Shown piece after piece: positions 57,391-64,000 of a stretch of 64,000 nt of DNA (its first letter is position 1; each line of letters opens with the position of its first letter). The stretch covers positions 1 to 64,000 of the forward strand of contig NZ_PJZI01000018.1 of assembly GCF_002858805.1 (NCBI RefSeq), read 5' to 3'. The DNA is from Chimaeribacter arupi. GTDB lineage: Bacteria > Pseudomonadota > Gammaproteobacteria > Enterobacterales > Enterobacteriaceae. The notes under the pieces are model-generated. The model searched no databases. It had not been told where the DNA came from and was given only the letters and a program-made list of their open reading frames with translations. Position numbers and translations under genes: made by a program.

Positions 57391-58092
57391 ATGAAGATGC
57401 TTAACGAATTGAAACAACAGGTGCTGGAAGCAAACCTGGCCCTGCCGCGCCACAATCTGGTGACCTTTACCTGGGGAAATGTCAGCGCCGTTGACCGCGG
57501 ACAGGGGCTGTTGGTGATCAAACCCTCGGGGGTGGAGTATGCGCATATGACGGCCGAAGACATGGTGGTGGTGGAGCTGGAGAGCGGCCGCGTGGTGGAA
57601 GGCAGCAAAAAGCCCTCGTCAGACACCGACACCCACCGGGTGCTCTACCTTAATTTTGAACAGGCGGGCGGCATTGTGCATACCCACTCACGCCATGCCA
57701 CCATCTGGGCGCAGGCGGGGCAGGACATCCCGGCCTGGGGCACTACCCACGCAGACTACTTCTACGGGCCCATCCCCTGTACCCGGATGATGACCGGGGC
57801 GGAGATTGGCGGGCGTTATGAGTGGGAAACCGGCGAGGTGATCGTGAAAACCTTCCGCGAACGTCAGATCGATCCGCAGGCCGTACCGGCGGTGCTGGTG
57901 CACTCCCACGGCCCGTTTGCCTGGGGCAGTGACGCCGACAACGCGGTGCACAACGCCGTGGTGCTGGAAGAGGTGGCGTATATGGGCATTTTCTCGCGCC
58001 AGCTTACCCCGGAACTTCCGGCGATGCAGCCGCAGTTGCTGGACAAGCACTACCTGCGCAAGCACGGCAAAAATGCCTACTATGGTCAATAA
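57391..58092 (+). CDS. araD: L-ribulose-5-phosphate 4-epimerase, AraD type
   Basis: A 233-aa class II aldolase-fold enzyme that converts L-ribulose 5-phosphate to D-xylulose 5-phosphate. It aligns in memory with E. coli AraD along its full length ([71 protein letters not shown]); UlaF and SgbE are more distant. Zinc ligands are His in HTHSRH and LVHSHGPF. No araB or araA is beside it, so this is an orphan copy inserted between osmB and yciT. The start may be the first ATG (57391) or the third codon. Confidence 0.88.
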
Positions 58093-58200
58093 GGGCCTGG
58101 GCCAATAACAGCCTGGGTTAATAACCACCGGCGCCGCCGGCCTTTATCCTCTTCCTCAGCAGCCTGCGGCAACGCGGGCCGCTGTTCTTCCAGGCCAACG

Positions 58201-58947
58201 TTATTCGCTGACCCGATCCACCGTAATCCCTTGCCCGATCAGGTAATCCGCATACTGCGGCGGCAGTTTGTCGTCGGTTATCACCCGGCTGAAGGCGCTG
58301 GCTGCGCCCAGCACGTTGGGGGTGATCTGGCCGAATTTCGAGGAGTCGGTCAGCACGATATTCTCGGCCCCCTTCGCCAGCAGCGCGTTGACCACATCGG
58401 CGCGCATCATGTCCCGCCCGGTAAAGCCGCTCTCCGGCGTAAAACCGTCGATGCCGACAAAGGCTTTGCTGAAATGCAGCTGCTGGATGCAGAGCCGGGT
58501 CAGCGGGCCGACCACGGTTTCGCTCTCTTTCTGGTACATGCCGCCCAGCAAAATCACATCGCACGGGGTAGCGCGCAGTAAATGGGCGATATAGCTGCTG
58601 ACGGTGATAAGCGTAATGTGCTTGCGCTCCGCCAGGTAGCGCGCCAGCAGGGCATTGCTGCTGCCGCTTTCGATAAAGATGGTGTCGCCGTCATTGACCA
58701 GTGAGGCGGCAAACTGCGCCAGTTTCTGCTTCTGGGCGAAATTAGACATCATCCGCGCGTCCAGATCGTCACTTTCAATCGCGACGGCGTAACCGTGAAC
58801 GCGCTTCAGGTAGCTGCGCTGCTCAAGACGGTTAAGATCCTGCCGGATAGTCACCTCAGAGACGCCGCACTGCTGGGCAAGCTCGCCCACGCTGACCCGG
58901 CGCTGTTGGTTTACCACCTGCATAATGTGTTGTTGTCGTGCGTTCAT
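58201..58947 (-). CDS. yciT: DeoR-family transcriptional regulator YciT
   Basis: A 248-aa repressor of the DeoR/GlpR family: helix-turn-helix (about 3-57, [32 protein letters not shown]) and a sugar-phosphate-binding domain (about 70-230). It matches E. coli YciT (249 aa), which also follows osmB. I start at 58947, where the family begins MNARQQHI; the ribosome binding site is weak. Only about 12 bp separate the ATG from the terminator of the ybiY-ybiW operon, so it may be reached by read-through. It is the natural candidate to control that operon. Confidence 0.9.
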
Positions 58948-58958
58948 AGTGGCCCAGA

Positions 58959-58985
58959 CAAAAAAGGGCAGCCGGGTGGCTGCCA
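58959..58985 (-). terminator. ybiY-ybiW operon terminator just before yciT
   Basis: On the minus strand GGCAGCC-ACCC-GGCTGCC is followed by CTTTTTT (stem at 58966-58973 and 58978-58984). The T-run ends about 12 bases before the yciT start codon, leaving little room for a separate leader. Confidence 0.85.
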
Positions 58986-59013
58986 CAAAGTATCTTCTGA
59001 AAAAAGAGGTTTC

Positions 59014-61446
59014 TCAGAGCGTGTGTTCAGTGCGCGCAATAATATCATCCTGCGCGTCCGGCGATAAAGCCGTAAAGAACGCCGAGTAACCGGCAACACG
59101 CACCACCAGGTCACGGTACTGATCCGGCTGCGCCTTGGCGGCCAGCAGTGTGTCACGCGACACAATGTTGTACTGCACATGCCAGCCGTGGTGGACATCA
59201 AAGAACGTGCGCAGCAGCGCCAGCAGTTTTTCGCGGTCGCGCGGGTTCTCAAGCGTGGCCGGGTTCAGTTTCTGGTTCAGCAGCACGCCGCCCAGGATCG
59301 CCGAGGTCGGCAATTTCCCGAGCGAGTTGAACACTGCCGTTGGGCCGAGGGTATCGGTGCCGGAGGCGGGGCTGGCGCCTTCTGCCAGCGGCGTGCCGGC
59401 CTTGCGGCCGTCCGGCGTCGCCGGGGTGGCCGCGCCGAACGGCACATTGGCAGAGATGGAGGACGTCCCGGCGTAGTAGGTGCCGCCCACCGGGCCGCGG
59501 CCGAAGCGGGTGTTGTGGTACTGCTTCAGCTCATCGATGTAGGTCTGGTAGGCGCGCACCAGCAGGTCATCCACCTCATCGCGGTCATTGCCGTATTTCG
59601 GCGCGCCGTTGACCAGCCGCTGGCGCAGTTTCTCGCCGTCCAGCCCGCTGAAATCGCTGGCCAGCGCCGCCGCCAGCTGTTGCTGGCCGATAATACCCTG
59701 TTCAAACACCAGCGTACGCACCGCCGCCAGGCTGTTGCCGAGGTTCGCGATGCCGACCTGCAAGCCGGAAACCCAGTCATATTTTGCGCCGCCCTGTTTG
59801 ATGCTTTTGCCGCGCTCAATGCAGTCATCCACCAGCGCGGAGCAAAGGATGTCATGGGCATTCTCCTCCAGCACGGTATCCACCACGCACTCAATCTCAA
59901 TCGACTTGCGGGTGTAGTAGCGGATCTGGCGGTCCCAGGCGGCCATCACCTCGTCAAACCGGGTGAAATTGCCCTGTGACAGCCCCTGTTCTTGCGGCAG
60001 GAACACCCGGCCGCTCTGGCTGTCGCGCCCCTGTTCCAGCGCCGCCAGCATCACGCGGGCGAAGTTAATGAAGCTCATGCCGGTGCAGCGGTAGCCCCAT
60101 TTGCCGCCTACGGCGGTTTCAATGCAGCCGATGGCGGCATAGTCGTAGGCATCCTCGCGCGAAACGCCCAGCTTGATAAACTCCGGGATCACGATCTCAT
60201 CGTTGTTGAACGCCGGCATCCCGAAGCCACAGCGGATCACCTGCACACAGGCATCCATAAAATCATCGCTGATCCCGCTGTGGTAACGCACGCTGAGGTT
60301 CGGTTGGGTGGAGCGCAACCGGCCGCAGGATTCCAGCACCACATAGGAGAGCGGGTTAACCGCATCCACCGCCCGGCCGTCTGCCCAGCGCTGGCCGCCG
60401 ATGGTGACATTCTGGTAGAGCGGGCTGCCGGCCGAGGCTTTGGAGTGGCTGCCGGAGCGGATCTTGTTCACTTCCAGCAGTTTCAGCCAGCAGCTGTTCA
60501 GCAGCTCAATCGCCTGTTCACGCGGCAGCGCGCCGGTCAGCTCGACATCCCGCCGGTACCACGGGTAGAGGTACTGGTCGAGGCGGCCGAAGGAGACGGA
60601 GTGGCCGTTGGACTCAATCTGCAACACCAGTTGCACGAAATAGCAGAGTTGCAGCGCCTGCCAGAAGGTTTGCGGCGGCTGGTGGGCGATCAGTTCACCG
60701 TTGGCCGCGATCGCCTGCAATTCGTCGCGGCGGGCAGGGCGCGTCTCTTCCGCCGCCATACGCCGCGCCAGATCGGCAAAGCGCAGGATGTGGTCACTGA
60801 GCGCGGCCAGGGTAATATCAATTGCTTTCAGGAACTGCTCTTTATGCAGGTCTTCCCAGTCGGTGAGCGCCAGCCGCTCGCGGCGTTCACTGACTTTTTC
60901 GCGCAGGCCGTCCAGCCCGAGCTCCAGCAACAGCGGGTAGTTCACCGCCAGGTGGGCGTCGCCGGAGGTCATATTGCCTTCGGCCTTGATAATGCCTGCC
61001 TCCAGCAGCGCTTTCTGTTCGTCCGTGAACATGCCGTAGCAGCGATCCTGTACCGTCTGGCCGCGCCACCACGGGCAGACCTGATGCAGCACGGTTTTGT
61101 CCTGCTCGGAAACGGCGAACCCGGCACCGGGGCGGTCGGCCAGATCGTCGATCTCTTTCTCAATCCAGTTGACGGTGTATTCCGGGAAAATTGGCGCGGC
61201 GCGCACCTGGCTCGCCTGGTTGCCGACAATCAGCTCGTCATGCTTAATCCAGATGGTGCGTTGTGCCAGGTGGTGCGCCAGGGCCAGCGCGCGGCGCACC
61301 GGCAGTGGTTTATCCTGGTGCTGCTGGTACATCTCGGTGTAGTGCTGCGCCCGCTCGGTGCAGATCGGCGGTTTGACAATCGCGACCAGCGCCGCCTTGT
61401 GGGCGCGGATACGGTCACTCAGGGTATCAAGGTTGAGTTGGGTCAT
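59014..61446 (-). CDS. ybiW: Glycyl radical enzyme, YbiW (PflF) type
   Basis: An 810-aa glycyl radical enzyme with the same length and pattern as E. coli YbiW. The radical glycine is G786 in RVAGYSAF near the C-terminus; the thiyl radical cysteine C441 and the base E443 lie in AAIGCIETAVGG. This single-Cys GCxE motif fits eliminases such as glycerol and diol dehydratases rather than pyruvate formate-lyase, which has a Cys-Cys pair. The substrate is unknown. It is oxygen-sensitive by family and lies directly after its activase gene ybiY in one operon. Confidence 0.94.
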   Translation of the reverse strand: MTQLNLDTLSDRIRAHKAALVAIVKPPICTERAQHYTEMYQQHQDKPLPVRRALALAHHLAQRTIWIKHDELIVGNQASQVRAAPIFPEYTVNWIEKEIDDLADRPGAGFAVSEQDKTVLHQVCPWWRGQTVQDRCYGMFTDEQKALLEAGIIKAEGNMTSGDAHLAVNYPLLLELGLDGLREKVSERRERLALTDWEDLHKEQFLKAIDITLAALSDHILRFADLARRMAAEETRPARRDELQAIAANGELIAHQPPQTFWQALQLCYFVQLVLQIESNGHSVSFGRLDQYLYPWYRRDVELTGALPREQAIELLNSCWLKLLEVNKIRSGSHSKASAGSPLYQNVTIGGQRWADGRAVDAVNPLSYVVLESCGRLRSTQPNLSVRYHSGISDDFMDACVQVIRCGFGMPAFNNDEIVIPEFIKLGVSREDAYDYAAIGCIETAVGGKWGYRCTGMSFINFARVMLAALEQGRDSQSGRVFLPQEQGLSQGNFTRFDEVMAAWDRQIRYYTRKSIEIECVVDTVLEENAHDILCSALVDDCIERGKSIKQGGAKYDWVSGLQVGIANLGNSLAAVRTLVFEQGIIGQQQLAAALASDFSGLDGEKLRQRLVNGAPKYGNDRDEVDDLLVRAYQTYIDELKQYHNTRFGRGPVGGTYYAGTSSISANVPFGAATPATPDGRKAGTPLAEGASPASGTDTLGPTAVFNSLGKLPTSAILGGVLLNQKLNPATLENPRDREKLLALLRTFFDVHHGWHVQYNIVSRDTLLAAKAQPDQYRDLVVRVAGYSAFFTALSPDAQDDIIARTEHTL

Positions 61447-61450
61447 GGTG

Positions 61451-62350
61451 CTATCCTCTTAACAGGGCGTCCAGGCCGCGCTGCCGGGCATAATGCCGGG
61501 CAAAGGCCAGCAGCGCCGGGTCATCCAGCGGCGTGGCCGGTGCGGTGTAGGGCTGGTTCAGCAAGGCATACTTATTGATGCCGAGCGTGTGGTAAGGCAG
61601 AAAATGGATCTCTTTGCAGGGCGTCTCGTCTGCGGCAAAATCGATGATGGCGCGCAACGAGTCATTATCCGCGTTGAAACCGGGAATGACCGGCACCCGC
61701 ACAATCACCGGCACCCCGGCCTCTGCCAGGCGGCGGAAATTGGCCATCACCCGCCGCGCGGAGCCGCCGGTCCAGTCGCGAAAGCGCGCGTCATCAACGT
61801 GTTTCAGGTCAGCGAGCAGCAGTGACAGGTGCGGCAGGGAGGGCGCAATGTAATGCCACGGCACATGCAGGCAGCTCTCCACGGCGGTGTGCAGCCCTTC
61901 GGCCCGGCAGCGCTGCAACAGGTCAGCGCAGGCGTCCGGCTGCATAAAGGGTTCGCCGCCGGAGAGCGTGATGCCGCCGCCGCTGCGCTGGTAGAAAGGC
62001 CGGTCACGCAACAGGGTCGCCATGACGGCGTCCCTGTCCAGCGCCTCGCCGCACAACGACAGCGCGCCGCTCGGGCAACCGGCCGCCAGCACCGGCAAAT
62101 CTGCCTCTGTCAGGCGTTCACGGTGCAGGGTCAGGTGATCCTGCTGATGCGTCACTGCCTCCGGGCAGCGCTGGCTGCATTCGCGGCAACCGGCAATGCA
62201 CAGGCGCGGGTCAAACAGCAGGTCGGGCGTGCGGGCGCGGCTTTCCGGGTTCTGGCACCAGCGGCAGCTCAGCGAGCAGCCTTTTAGAAACACCACGGTG
62301 CGGATGCCGGGGCCATCGTGGGTTGAGTATCGTTGAAGATTAAACAGCAT
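61451..62350 (-). CDS. ybiY: Glycyl radical enzyme activase, YbiY (PflE) type
   Basis: A 299-aa radical SAM enzyme that abstracts a hydrogen from the glycine of YbiW. The SAM cluster motif is CSLSCRWC (CX3CX2C), near residue 25, preceded by [13 protein letters not shown]. An inserted ferredoxin-like region ([16 protein letters not shown] and CPSGAL) holds extra cysteines for auxiliary clusters, normal for this subfamily. GGEP (SGGEPFMQP) binds SAM. The gene precedes ybiW by 4 bp. Confidence 0.94.
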
Positions 62351-62360
62351 AGCGCCTCCA

Positions 62361-62394
62361 TTTCGTTCGGAGATTAAAATGGTTTCGAACGAAA
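62361..62394. promoter_or_regulatory. Operator-like inverted repeat between ybiY and fsa
   Basis: TTTCGTTCG (62361-62369) and CGAACGAAA (62386-62394) are exact reverse complements 16 bp apart, about 11-44 bp before the ybiY start. TTTCG-type repeats are common operators of DeoR-family repressors, and yciT in this cluster is one. Direct evidence is lacking. Confidence 0.6.
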
Positions 62395-62400
62395 GTTATA

Positions 62401-62414
62401 TTGACGCGGGTCAA
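62401..62414. promoter_or_regulatory. FNR-like palindrome TTGAC-N4-GTCAA
   Basis: TTGAC-GCGG-GTCAA has the architecture of the FNR box with C/G for T/A in the innermost position of each half-site. It lies between the divergent ybiY and fsa, where oxygen control would make sense for an oxygen-sensitive glycyl radical enzyme. Confidence 0.45.
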
Positions 62415-62481
62415 GAAGAGGGCGGCTTTATCCGTTACCATGCGGGCAGTGTGACGTTACCCAATTAATCAGGAGAGTGAG

Positions 62482-63147
62482 ATGGAGCTATATCTGGATA
62501 CGGCAGACGTGAATGCCGTCAAACGCCTGGCGCGCATTCTGCCGCTGCATGGCGTCACCACCAACCCAAGCATTGTGGCCCGCGCCGGGAAACCGCTGTG
62601 GGACGTGCTGCCCGCGCTGCGGGATGCACTGGGCGGCACCGGCAAACTCTTTGCCCAGGTGCTGGCAGAGGATGCAGACCACATGGTGGCCGAAGCGCAG
62701 ATGCTGACGCAGCGGGTGCCGGGGCTGGTGGTGAAAGTGCCGGTCAACGGCGAGGGGCTGGCAGCGCTGAAGACGCTGAAAAGCCTCGGCATCCCGACGC
62801 TGGGCACGGCGGTTTACGCCGCCGGGCAGGGGCTGCTGGGCGCGCTGGCCGGGGCGGAGTATGTGGCGCCCTATGTCAACCGGCTGGATGCGCAGGGCAG
62901 TGACGGCATCGCGATGGTGCGCCAGTTGCAATCGTTGCTGGACCAGCACGCACCGCACGCCAGCGTGCTGGCGGCCAGCTTCCGTACCCCGCGCCAGGCG
63001 GTCGATTGCCTGCTGGCCGGTTGCCGTTCGATTACCCTGCCGGTGGATGTGGCAGAGCAATTGTTTACCGCCCCGGCGGTAGACGCCGCGATCCAGGCCT
63101 TCGGCAATGACTGGCAGGGCGCATTCGGCACCCGTGTGCTGAGCTGA
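62482..63147 (+). CDS. fsa: Fructose-6-phosphate aldolase
   Basis: A 221-aa transaldolase-like enzyme that cleaves fructose 6-phosphate to dihydroxyacetone and glyceraldehyde 3-phosphate or runs in reverse. K85 in GLVVKVPV is the Schiff-base lysine; D6 (YLDTADV) and TTNPS are the usual neighbours. E. coli FsaA (220 aa) also stands divergent to ybiY-ybiW, so the cluster is conserved. CAGGAGAGTGAG precedes the ATG. Confidence 0.94.
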
Positions 63148-63162: not shown

Positions 63163-63191
63163 GTAAGCCTGCCGCCCGGCAGGCTTTTTTT
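63163..63191 (+). terminator. fsa terminator
   Basis: AAGCCTGCC (63165-63173) and GGCAGGCTT (63178-63186) pair around GCCC and run into T residues. Confidence 0.93.
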
Positions 63192-63446
63192 GCCTCCCCC
63201 GTTGCTGCTTTTCCCGCCATTTTTGAGAAAAATGAGATCGCAATGAGATTTTTTAGCCTGCCTGACCAGAGGTGAACTGCCTGCGTCACAAAAATAGAAA
63301 CGGCGTTTCAAAATTGTGGGTGAGATCATTTTTATTCACCATGTAAACGGTTAACTTACTCAACCATTGGCGCATGAATGAATAAGGCTCGCTGGACACA
63401 GTGGCCGCGCATCCGTTTTCTTAGTTCTCTGAGGCGAAAAAGTCCC
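63192..63446 (+). promoter_or_regulatory. kdgT promoter region with KdgR-like box
   Basis: 255 bp between the fsa terminator and kdgT. GAAACG-G-CGTTTC (63297-63309), flanked by A-rich and T-rich ends, resembles the box of the pectin and hexuronate repressor KdgR and lies about 140 bp before the start. TTAACTTACT near 63351 is a weak -10 region. Confidence 0.5.
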
Positions 63447-64000
63447 ATGCAAATTAAACGTGCGATAGAAAAAATTCCGGGCGGTATGATGCTGGTGCCG
63501 CTGTTTCTCGGTGCGCTGTGCCATACCTTTGCGCCGGATGCCGGAAAATATTTTGGCTCCTTTACCAATGGCCTGATCGCCGGTACGGTGCCGATCCTGG
63601 CGGTCTGGTTCTTCTGTATGGGGGCGTCGATCAAGCTCAGCGCCACCGGCACCGTGCTGCGCAAGTCCGGCACGCTGGTGGTCACCAAAATCGCGGTCGC
63701 CTGGATTGTGGCGGCGATCGCCTCCCGGATATTGCCGGAAAACGGCGTCGAAATCGGCTTCTTTGCCGGGCTGTCAACGCTGGCGCTGGTGGCCGCGATG
63801 GACATGACCAACGGCGGGCTGTACGCCTCTATCATGCAGCAGTACGGCACGAAAGAGGAAGCGGGGGCCTTCGTGCTGATGTCGCTGGAGTCCGGCCCGT
63901 TGATGACCATGGTCATCCTCGGCACGGCGGGCATCGCGTCCTTTGAGCCGCATGTGTTTGTCGGGGCGGTGCTGCCGTTCCTGGTGGGCTTTGCGCTCGG
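63447..64000 (+). CDS. kdgT: 2-keto-3-deoxygluconate permease, 3' end outside window
   Basis: KdgT imports 2-keto-3-deoxygluconate, an intermediate of pectin and hexuronate breakdown. The first 184 codons of about 327 are present: [39 protein letters not shown], then several hydrophobic helices, with [29 protein letters not shown]. It matches E. coli KdgT very closely. The start is at 63447; the frame runs open to the window edge. Confidence 0.96.

Follow-up and report, generated by a model that had tools for sequence, protein, structure and literature searches.

A yciT-Linked ybiYW–fsa Cluster in Chimaeribacter arupi as a Predicted Anaerobic Pathway for 1,5-Anhydroglucitol-6-Phosphate

Introduction

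It has been reported that YbiW of E. coli cleaves 1,5-anhydroglucitol-6-phosphate (AG6P) into 1-deoxyfructose-6-phosphate, and that PflD forms the same product by cleaving 1,5-anhydromannitol-6-phosphate (Ma et al., J Am Chem Soc 2024, as summarized in PMC12441222). According to the same summary, both polyols are first phosphorylated by the PTS, and E. coli and other gut bacteria are able to grow on 1,5-anhydroglucitol (1,5-AG) through these pathways. Proteomic work on animals is also on record: FsaA was increased 163-fold in the piglet gut, and YbiW was among the proteins increased in vivo. As for the aldolase, Fsa would act on 1-deoxyfructose-6-phosphate and yield hydroxyacetone and glyceraldehyde-3-phosphate.

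The regulator YciT of E. coli has also been described. ChIP-exo located it at 49 sites, including peaks upstream of both ybiUVWY and fsaA; deletion of yciT altered the expression of ybiV, ybiY and fsaA, and the YciT motif was called palindromic, as far as the excerpts of this work go (PMC8464067, 2021).

The window, that is, the whole stretch of 64,000 nucleotides of Chimaeribacter arupi that was analysed, carries araD, yciT, ybiW, ybiY and fsa. A first-pass annotation, made from the sequence alone, had described them as a candidate uncharacterised anaerobic module, with no known substrate, for the breakdown of a polyol or sugar phosphate under YciT control. Both the breakdown and the YciT control agree with what is reported of E. 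coli in the summary and excerpts above, where YbiW acts on AG6P and YciT binds and regulates these targets; the words "uncharacterised" and "no known substrate" are outdated. That is to say, the core inference was right and mostly known, the YciT regulation of ybiY and fsaA being in print already, as is the AG6P chemistry. What is new here is the linked regulator, a two-part promoter and a lead from Yersinia, and the rest is explained by the work of 2021 and 2024.

Locus Layout and Gene Models

Table 1. Features of the locus, by position in the window (positions in locus L005 in brackets).
Feature	Position	Strand	Basis or remark
araD, L-ribulose-5-phosphate 4-epimerase family	57391..58092	+	TIGR00760, 414.1 bits, above the cut-off of 389.1
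yciT-type regulator, DeoR family	58201..58947	-	frame listed from 58986; ATG 58947 likelier
terminator-like hairpin, between ybiW stop and yciT ATG	58967..58984 (L005 2984-2967)	-	simple pattern scan
ybiW orthologue, glycyl radical enzyme, predicted 1,5-anhydroglucitol-6-phosphate lyase	59014..61446	-	TIGR01774; Gly_radical
ybiY, radical SAM activase of glycyl radical enzyme	61451..62350	-	TIGR02494
predicted YciT operator GTTTCGAACGAAAG (consensus CTTTCGAATGAAAG)	62382..62395		conserved palindrome
predicted FNR box TTGACGCGGGTCAA	62401..62414		conserved box, 19 nt after operator start
candidate -10 element of fsa promoter, TACCAT	62436..62441	+	28 nt from FNR-box centre
fsa, fructose-6-phosphate aldolase family	62482..63147	+	TIGR00875 / PRK12653, above cut-off
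terminator-like hairpin with T run, 3' of fsa	63165..63186 (L005 7165-7186)	+	pattern scan
kdgT-type permease gene, runs past the window	63378..64000 (L005 7378-8436)	+	PF03812

The five genes named in the first-pass annotation are open frames at the coordinates that it gave, with strong family matches. ybiY and ybiW run leftward, four bases apart, and are followed by yciT; fsa leaves the same 131-base gap as ybiY in the rightward direction, and araD converges on yciT. With these opposed directions and the terminator-like hairpin after fsa, the five genes do not form a single transcription unit. The simple pattern scan for terminators found 15 sites against 7.9 in shuffles. Since one of its hairpins lies between ybiW and yciT, the case for one ybiY-ybiW-yciT transcript is weakened.

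For yciT, the frame of the first-pass annotation is kept and its start is moved, the gene probably beginning at the ATG and not at the GTG at 58986. The ATG is favoured because the alignment to the family model begins at residue 14 of the longer frame, because the Serratia orthologue starts at the matching place, and because the shorter gene leaves the hairpin in the ybiW–yciT gap. NF040887 is the best DeoR-type model for this protein (400.8 bits; 148.8 for the next model), but its score is under the cut-off of 450, so the regulator is named "yciT-type" here. In Fsa, residue 85 is a lysine, which we take to be catalytic.

The kdgT-type permease gene was absent from the first-pass annotation; its part within the window scores 359.1 bits with TIGR00793, whose cut-off is 453.8. 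Behind kdgT follow a frame of 574 residues (L005 8737-10461) and further frames, which are presumably cstA and rnb. The 574-residue frame, which stands between kdgT and cstA, has a 97% match in C. coloradensis (L006); the rest of the best 80 named loci gave none when 40% identity and length were required. No transporter of 1,5-AG linked to the cluster was found.

The Glycyl Radical Enzyme and the Proposed Pathway

The comparison covered the best 80 named loci of at least 585 YbiW relatives and 30 further loci with 1.5 kb flanks, 110 in all. The motifs GCIET and RVAGYSAF, pointed out in the first-pass annotation, are indeed present in YbiW from residues 440 and 783, respectively, and the Cys-x-Glu active-site motif occurs together with the C-terminal glycyl radical motif in 110 of 110 loci. 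Over its full length, YbiW is 84.6% identical to YbiW of E. coli K-12 (685 of 810 residues), while YbiY and Fsa are 63.9% and 66.5% identical to their E. coli orthologues. The top PDB matches of YbiW are 6xs4, 8id7 and 8yjn, the last two being deposited structures of E. coli YbiW. Among the matches listed, the nearest named relative is that of Chimaeribacter coloradensis (96%), and another Chimaeribacter genome has a YbiW of 98% identity. The source genome has four Gly_radical matches; a YbiW search of it gave three matches, the listed one being full length at 100%, and no second YbiW-like protein of about 40% identity was among the matches listed.

In the pathway proposed, 1,5-AG would be taken up by the PTS and arrive in the cell as AG6P; YbiY would put the glycyl radical on YbiW, which would convert AG6P to 1-deoxyfructose-6-phosphate, and Fsa would then split this product into a triose phosphate and a C3 ketone. 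The reaction of E. coli YbiW is in print, and the orthology and linkage of the genes are seen directly in the window; the same substrate is inferred for this species. On the whole, the cluster is very probably an anaerobic AG6P pathway together with its regulator, controlled by YciT and FNR, with araD and kdgT as neighbours.

The ybiY–fsa Promoter Region

The ybiY–fsa gaps of the related loci were compared next to that of the window. A script scored 90 of the 110 loci as divergent, and 81 distinct gaps were left when 9 repeats had been dropped. The palindrome CTTTCGAATGAAAG or its reverse complement is present with ≤3 mismatches in 81 of 81 distinct gaps, and it is exact in 59. Because the loci are related, this count stands for conservation and not for 81 independent events. 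Moreover, a box of the form TTGAYNNNNRTCAA is found with ≤1 mismatch exactly 19 nt from the start of the palindrome in all 81 gaps (exact in 67); the box of the window has two mismatches to the strict FNR form TTGATNNNNATCAA. When the forward palindrome and the strict box TTGATNNNNATCAA were each allowed ≤2 mismatches, 77 of the 81 gaps contained the pair, against 5 of 4050 shuffles that kept the dinucleotides. As for the 20 loci not scored as divergent, 12 keep the palindrome with ≤1 mismatch and 8, all of Yersinia, do not (5–6 mismatches).

A class II FNR promoter has its FNR site centred near -41.5 of the start site. In the gaps, a -10-like hexamer lies +28 from the box centre with ≤2 mismatches in 54% of cases, whereas the remaining offsets between 8 and 49 give 0–23%; the best -10 takes the +28 place in 41 of the 81 gaps and another place in the remaining 40. 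If the hexamer at +28 is the -10 element, the box centre would be at about -40.5 of a start site that is itself predicted. A general promoter scan did not pick the TACCAT candidate; its sole site in the region is 62374-62402, and one site there compares with 2.5 in shuffles. FNR control of fsaA and ybiY is not settled by the excerpts of PMC3686733 and PMC8464067.

Taken from sequence, the palindrome with its FNR-like box suggests repression by YciT combined with anaerobic activation by FNR. The palindrome would be the YciT site: YciT at this one operator would repress both divergent transcripts, a phosphosugar of the pathway would release it, and FNR bound beside it would activate fsa, and probably ybiY, when oxygen is absent.

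The exact core TTTCGAAYGAAAG occurs once in the source genome, inside the operator. With ≤1 mismatch (the exact one included), the source genome has 7 matches against 8 in a backwards control, and three other genomes have 8 against 7, 8 against 7 and 5 against 8. These counts are at control level, so only exact matches are telling, and a wider YciT regulon in the source genome was rejected on the same numbers. A 30 kb stretch of E. coli K-12 holds three copies of the exact 13-base core, one each before ybiU, ybiV and ybiY/fsaA; at ybiO and ompX, which are reported YciT targets in that stretch, the core was not found with ≤1 mismatch. In E. coli E69, all three exact cores of the whole genome are within the ybiW locus (L031), and the matches with ≤1 mismatch in this genome are at control level. 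Among the 22 named yciT-linked loci, exactly one exact core stands just before ybiY in 18 and none in 4.

Loci of Ewingella and Rahnella (L056, L059 and L082) carry the common operator form in reverse complement, CTTTCATTCGAAAG, with the same spacing; such a flip is to be expected if a dimer binds a near-palindrome. A half-site-like stretch TTTCGTTCG at 62361-62369 starts 22 nt before the operator core, and similar stretches, TTTCGTA or TTTCGTT, can be seen by eye in many relatives. In Phytobacter ursingii (L033), the palindrome and the FNR-like box are upstream of ybiY; fsa was not found beside ybiY at this locus, and its flank resembles, by eye, the tail of fsa, which would mean a deletion.

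Gene Neighbourhood in Related Bacteria

Among the best 80 named loci, yciT accompanies ybiWY and fsa in 22, sgrR is present in 7, and 51 have neither; 43 of these 51 carry ybiV, as E. coli does, short contigs hiding some genes. In the 30 further loci, yciT was seen in 12 and sgrR in 1. On a quick tree of 82 YbiW proteins with a midpoint root, the three arrangements need two changes, which is the minimum, against 27.3 in shuffles. The yciT-linked arrangement is probably the older one, since the proteins with it occur on several branches that surround the other two groups; this direction is inferred from a tree whose root is not fixed.

Three neighbours were considered as members. For araD, which the first-pass annotation had counted in, membership is not supported: the gene stands apart and is convergent, only 9 of the 80 named loci have it at most 8 kb from ybiW, and no operator core with ≤2 mismatches was found near it. 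The genome has a second araD copy of 61% identity (G000:C34:77580-78263). kdgT is present in 4 of the best 80 named loci. Both were set aside on the lack of an operator, the transcript layout and their patchy presence, and they are probably neighbours of the pathway genes. ybiV was also rejected as a missing member: the source genome has no close relative of it, and the best by score of four matches is 23% identical.

The Yersinia Arrangement

In all seven named Yersinia, yciT and fsa are adjacent and divergent without ybiYW between them, and araD lies beside yciT. Their yciT–fsa gap has the palindrome with ≤1 mismatch (exact in five), and the FNR-like box there stands one base closer and has AC, not AA, as its last two letters. 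ybiY and ybiW are instead situated between sgrR and a gene for a SetA-type sugar exporter. SgrS RNA lies directly 3' of ybiW, above the Rfam cut-off in three of the seven (37.6 bits each) and below it in four (25.7–35.0 bits). The sgrR–ybiY gap can be aligned with the sgrR–sgrS promoter region both in E. coli and in the source genome, which has the usual sgrR-sgrT/SgrS-setA order. SgrT, the product of sgrT, is a protein that blocks glucose uptake. A named example of ybiY-ybiW in the place of sgrT is seen at L012 5310-12134.

A further 25 genomes of the genus of G040 were searched, which probably overlap the seven named species; the genus is taken as Yersinia because G040 and Y. alsatica share ybiW at 100% identity. 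All 25 have some YbiW match, with an orthologue in 22 (21 at ≥96% to the query and one at 82%) and distant relatives of ≤29% alone in three. In 21 of the 25 (L093, L170-L189), sgrR, the promoter block, ybiYW, the base-pairing part of SgrS and setA follow in order, and SgrT was found in none of these 21 by pattern or by tblastn, which gave weak short matches (E ≥0.039). The three genomes without ybiW have a full SgrT frame at the sgr locus. That is to say, this locus holds ybiYW in 21 genomes, sgrT in 3, neither in 1 and both in 0. The one with neither is the 82% genome, G180 (L190 and L199), which keeps yciT-ybiWY-fsa; sgrT could therefore be lost without the arrival of ybiYW, and G180 may represent an intermediate stage, with the loss of sgrT coming first. 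The SgrS matches of G180 and of the three ybiW-less genomes are below the Rfam cut-off (27.4–35.4 bits).

The swap of ybiYW for sgrT fits the remark of a 2014 review that SgrS of Yersinia has a truncated 5' end and no sgrT (PMC4021124). A link of sgr with ybiW or anhydroglucitol was not found in print with few search terms, which makes this a weak absence. This gene order of Yersinia may already be noted in the 2009 SgrS survey of Horler and Vanderpool, which PMC4021124 cites.

If AG6P is a natural stressor, it is understandable that an enzyme which destroys it should stand under the stress promoter where SgrT was encoded. As a tentative proposal, AG6P might be a natural inducer of the SgrR/SgrS glucose-phosphate stress response and YbiW its anaerobic clearing enzyme; in most of the Yersinia examined, the sgrS promoter would drive ybiY-ybiW, and SgrS would form a 3' portion of this transcript, the enzyme that destroys the stressor having replaced SgrT. 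Alternatively, ybiYW may have come to a useful promoter by a chance move, or Yersinia SgrS may act from a promoter of its own.

Alternative Explanations

The same arrangement raises the question whether the module mainly detoxifies, YbiW removing AG6P as an analogue of glucose-6-phosphate and not serving growth on 1,5-AG. In favour of this, ybiYW occupies the site of sgrT within sgrR-SgrS-setA in 21 of the 25 genomes searched in the genus Yersinia, but the operator is retained at fsa, whose step is catabolic, sgrR is near ybiW in 0 of the other 73 of the best 80 named loci, and the growth of E. coli and other gut bacteria on 1,5-AG is reported in the summary of PMC12441222, so that detoxification as the main role is possible and rather doubtful.

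It is improbable that YbiW has some other polyol or sugar phosphate as its substrate here, such as one linked to kdgT or araD, and no more than resembles the AG6P enzyme. Both of these genes border the cluster, and 9 of the 22 named yciT-linked loci have araD beside yciT, as do all 7 named Yersinia; against this stand the identity of YbiW to the characterised enzyme, the lack of an operator at both genes, the terminator-like hairpin before kdgT and the rarity of kdgT at these loci. The older annotation of YbiW as a pyruvate formate-lyase, still given as putative in the K-12 record and echoed by the subfamily model that was passed (formate C-acetyltransferase/glycerol dehydratase family), is highly improbable, as pyr_form_ly_1 gives 154 bits with a cut-off of 994 and PRK09983 gives 588 with 1109, and a different reaction is reported for E. 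coli YbiW in the summary of PMC12441222.

Comparison with Known Systems

In the window, a known pathway is joined on the DNA to the gene of its regulator, and the window offers a concrete promoter model, of YciT and FNR, for an orphan enzyme that was explained only recently; the gene rearrangement in related bacteria hints at a link to the sugar-stress response. PflD is a related glycyl radical enzyme for which the same product is reported as for YbiW, but its structure 8yjo matches YbiW of the window at 502 bits, against 1578 for the YbiW structure 8id7. The ybiUVWY/fsaA locus of E. coli has orthologous YbiW, YbiY and Fsa in the same divergent ybiY–fsa layout, and its ybiY–fsaA gap has the same palindrome and FNR-like box. 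The window differs from it in having yciT beside ybiW and araD and kdgT on the flanks, with no adjacent ybiU or ybiV. In the sgrR-ybiY-ybiW-SgrS-setA order of Yersinia, the ybiYW pair is the same, and yciT and fsa share the palindrome at another site; unlike in the window, ybiYW stands behind the sgrR–sgrS promoter region, in the place of sgrT.
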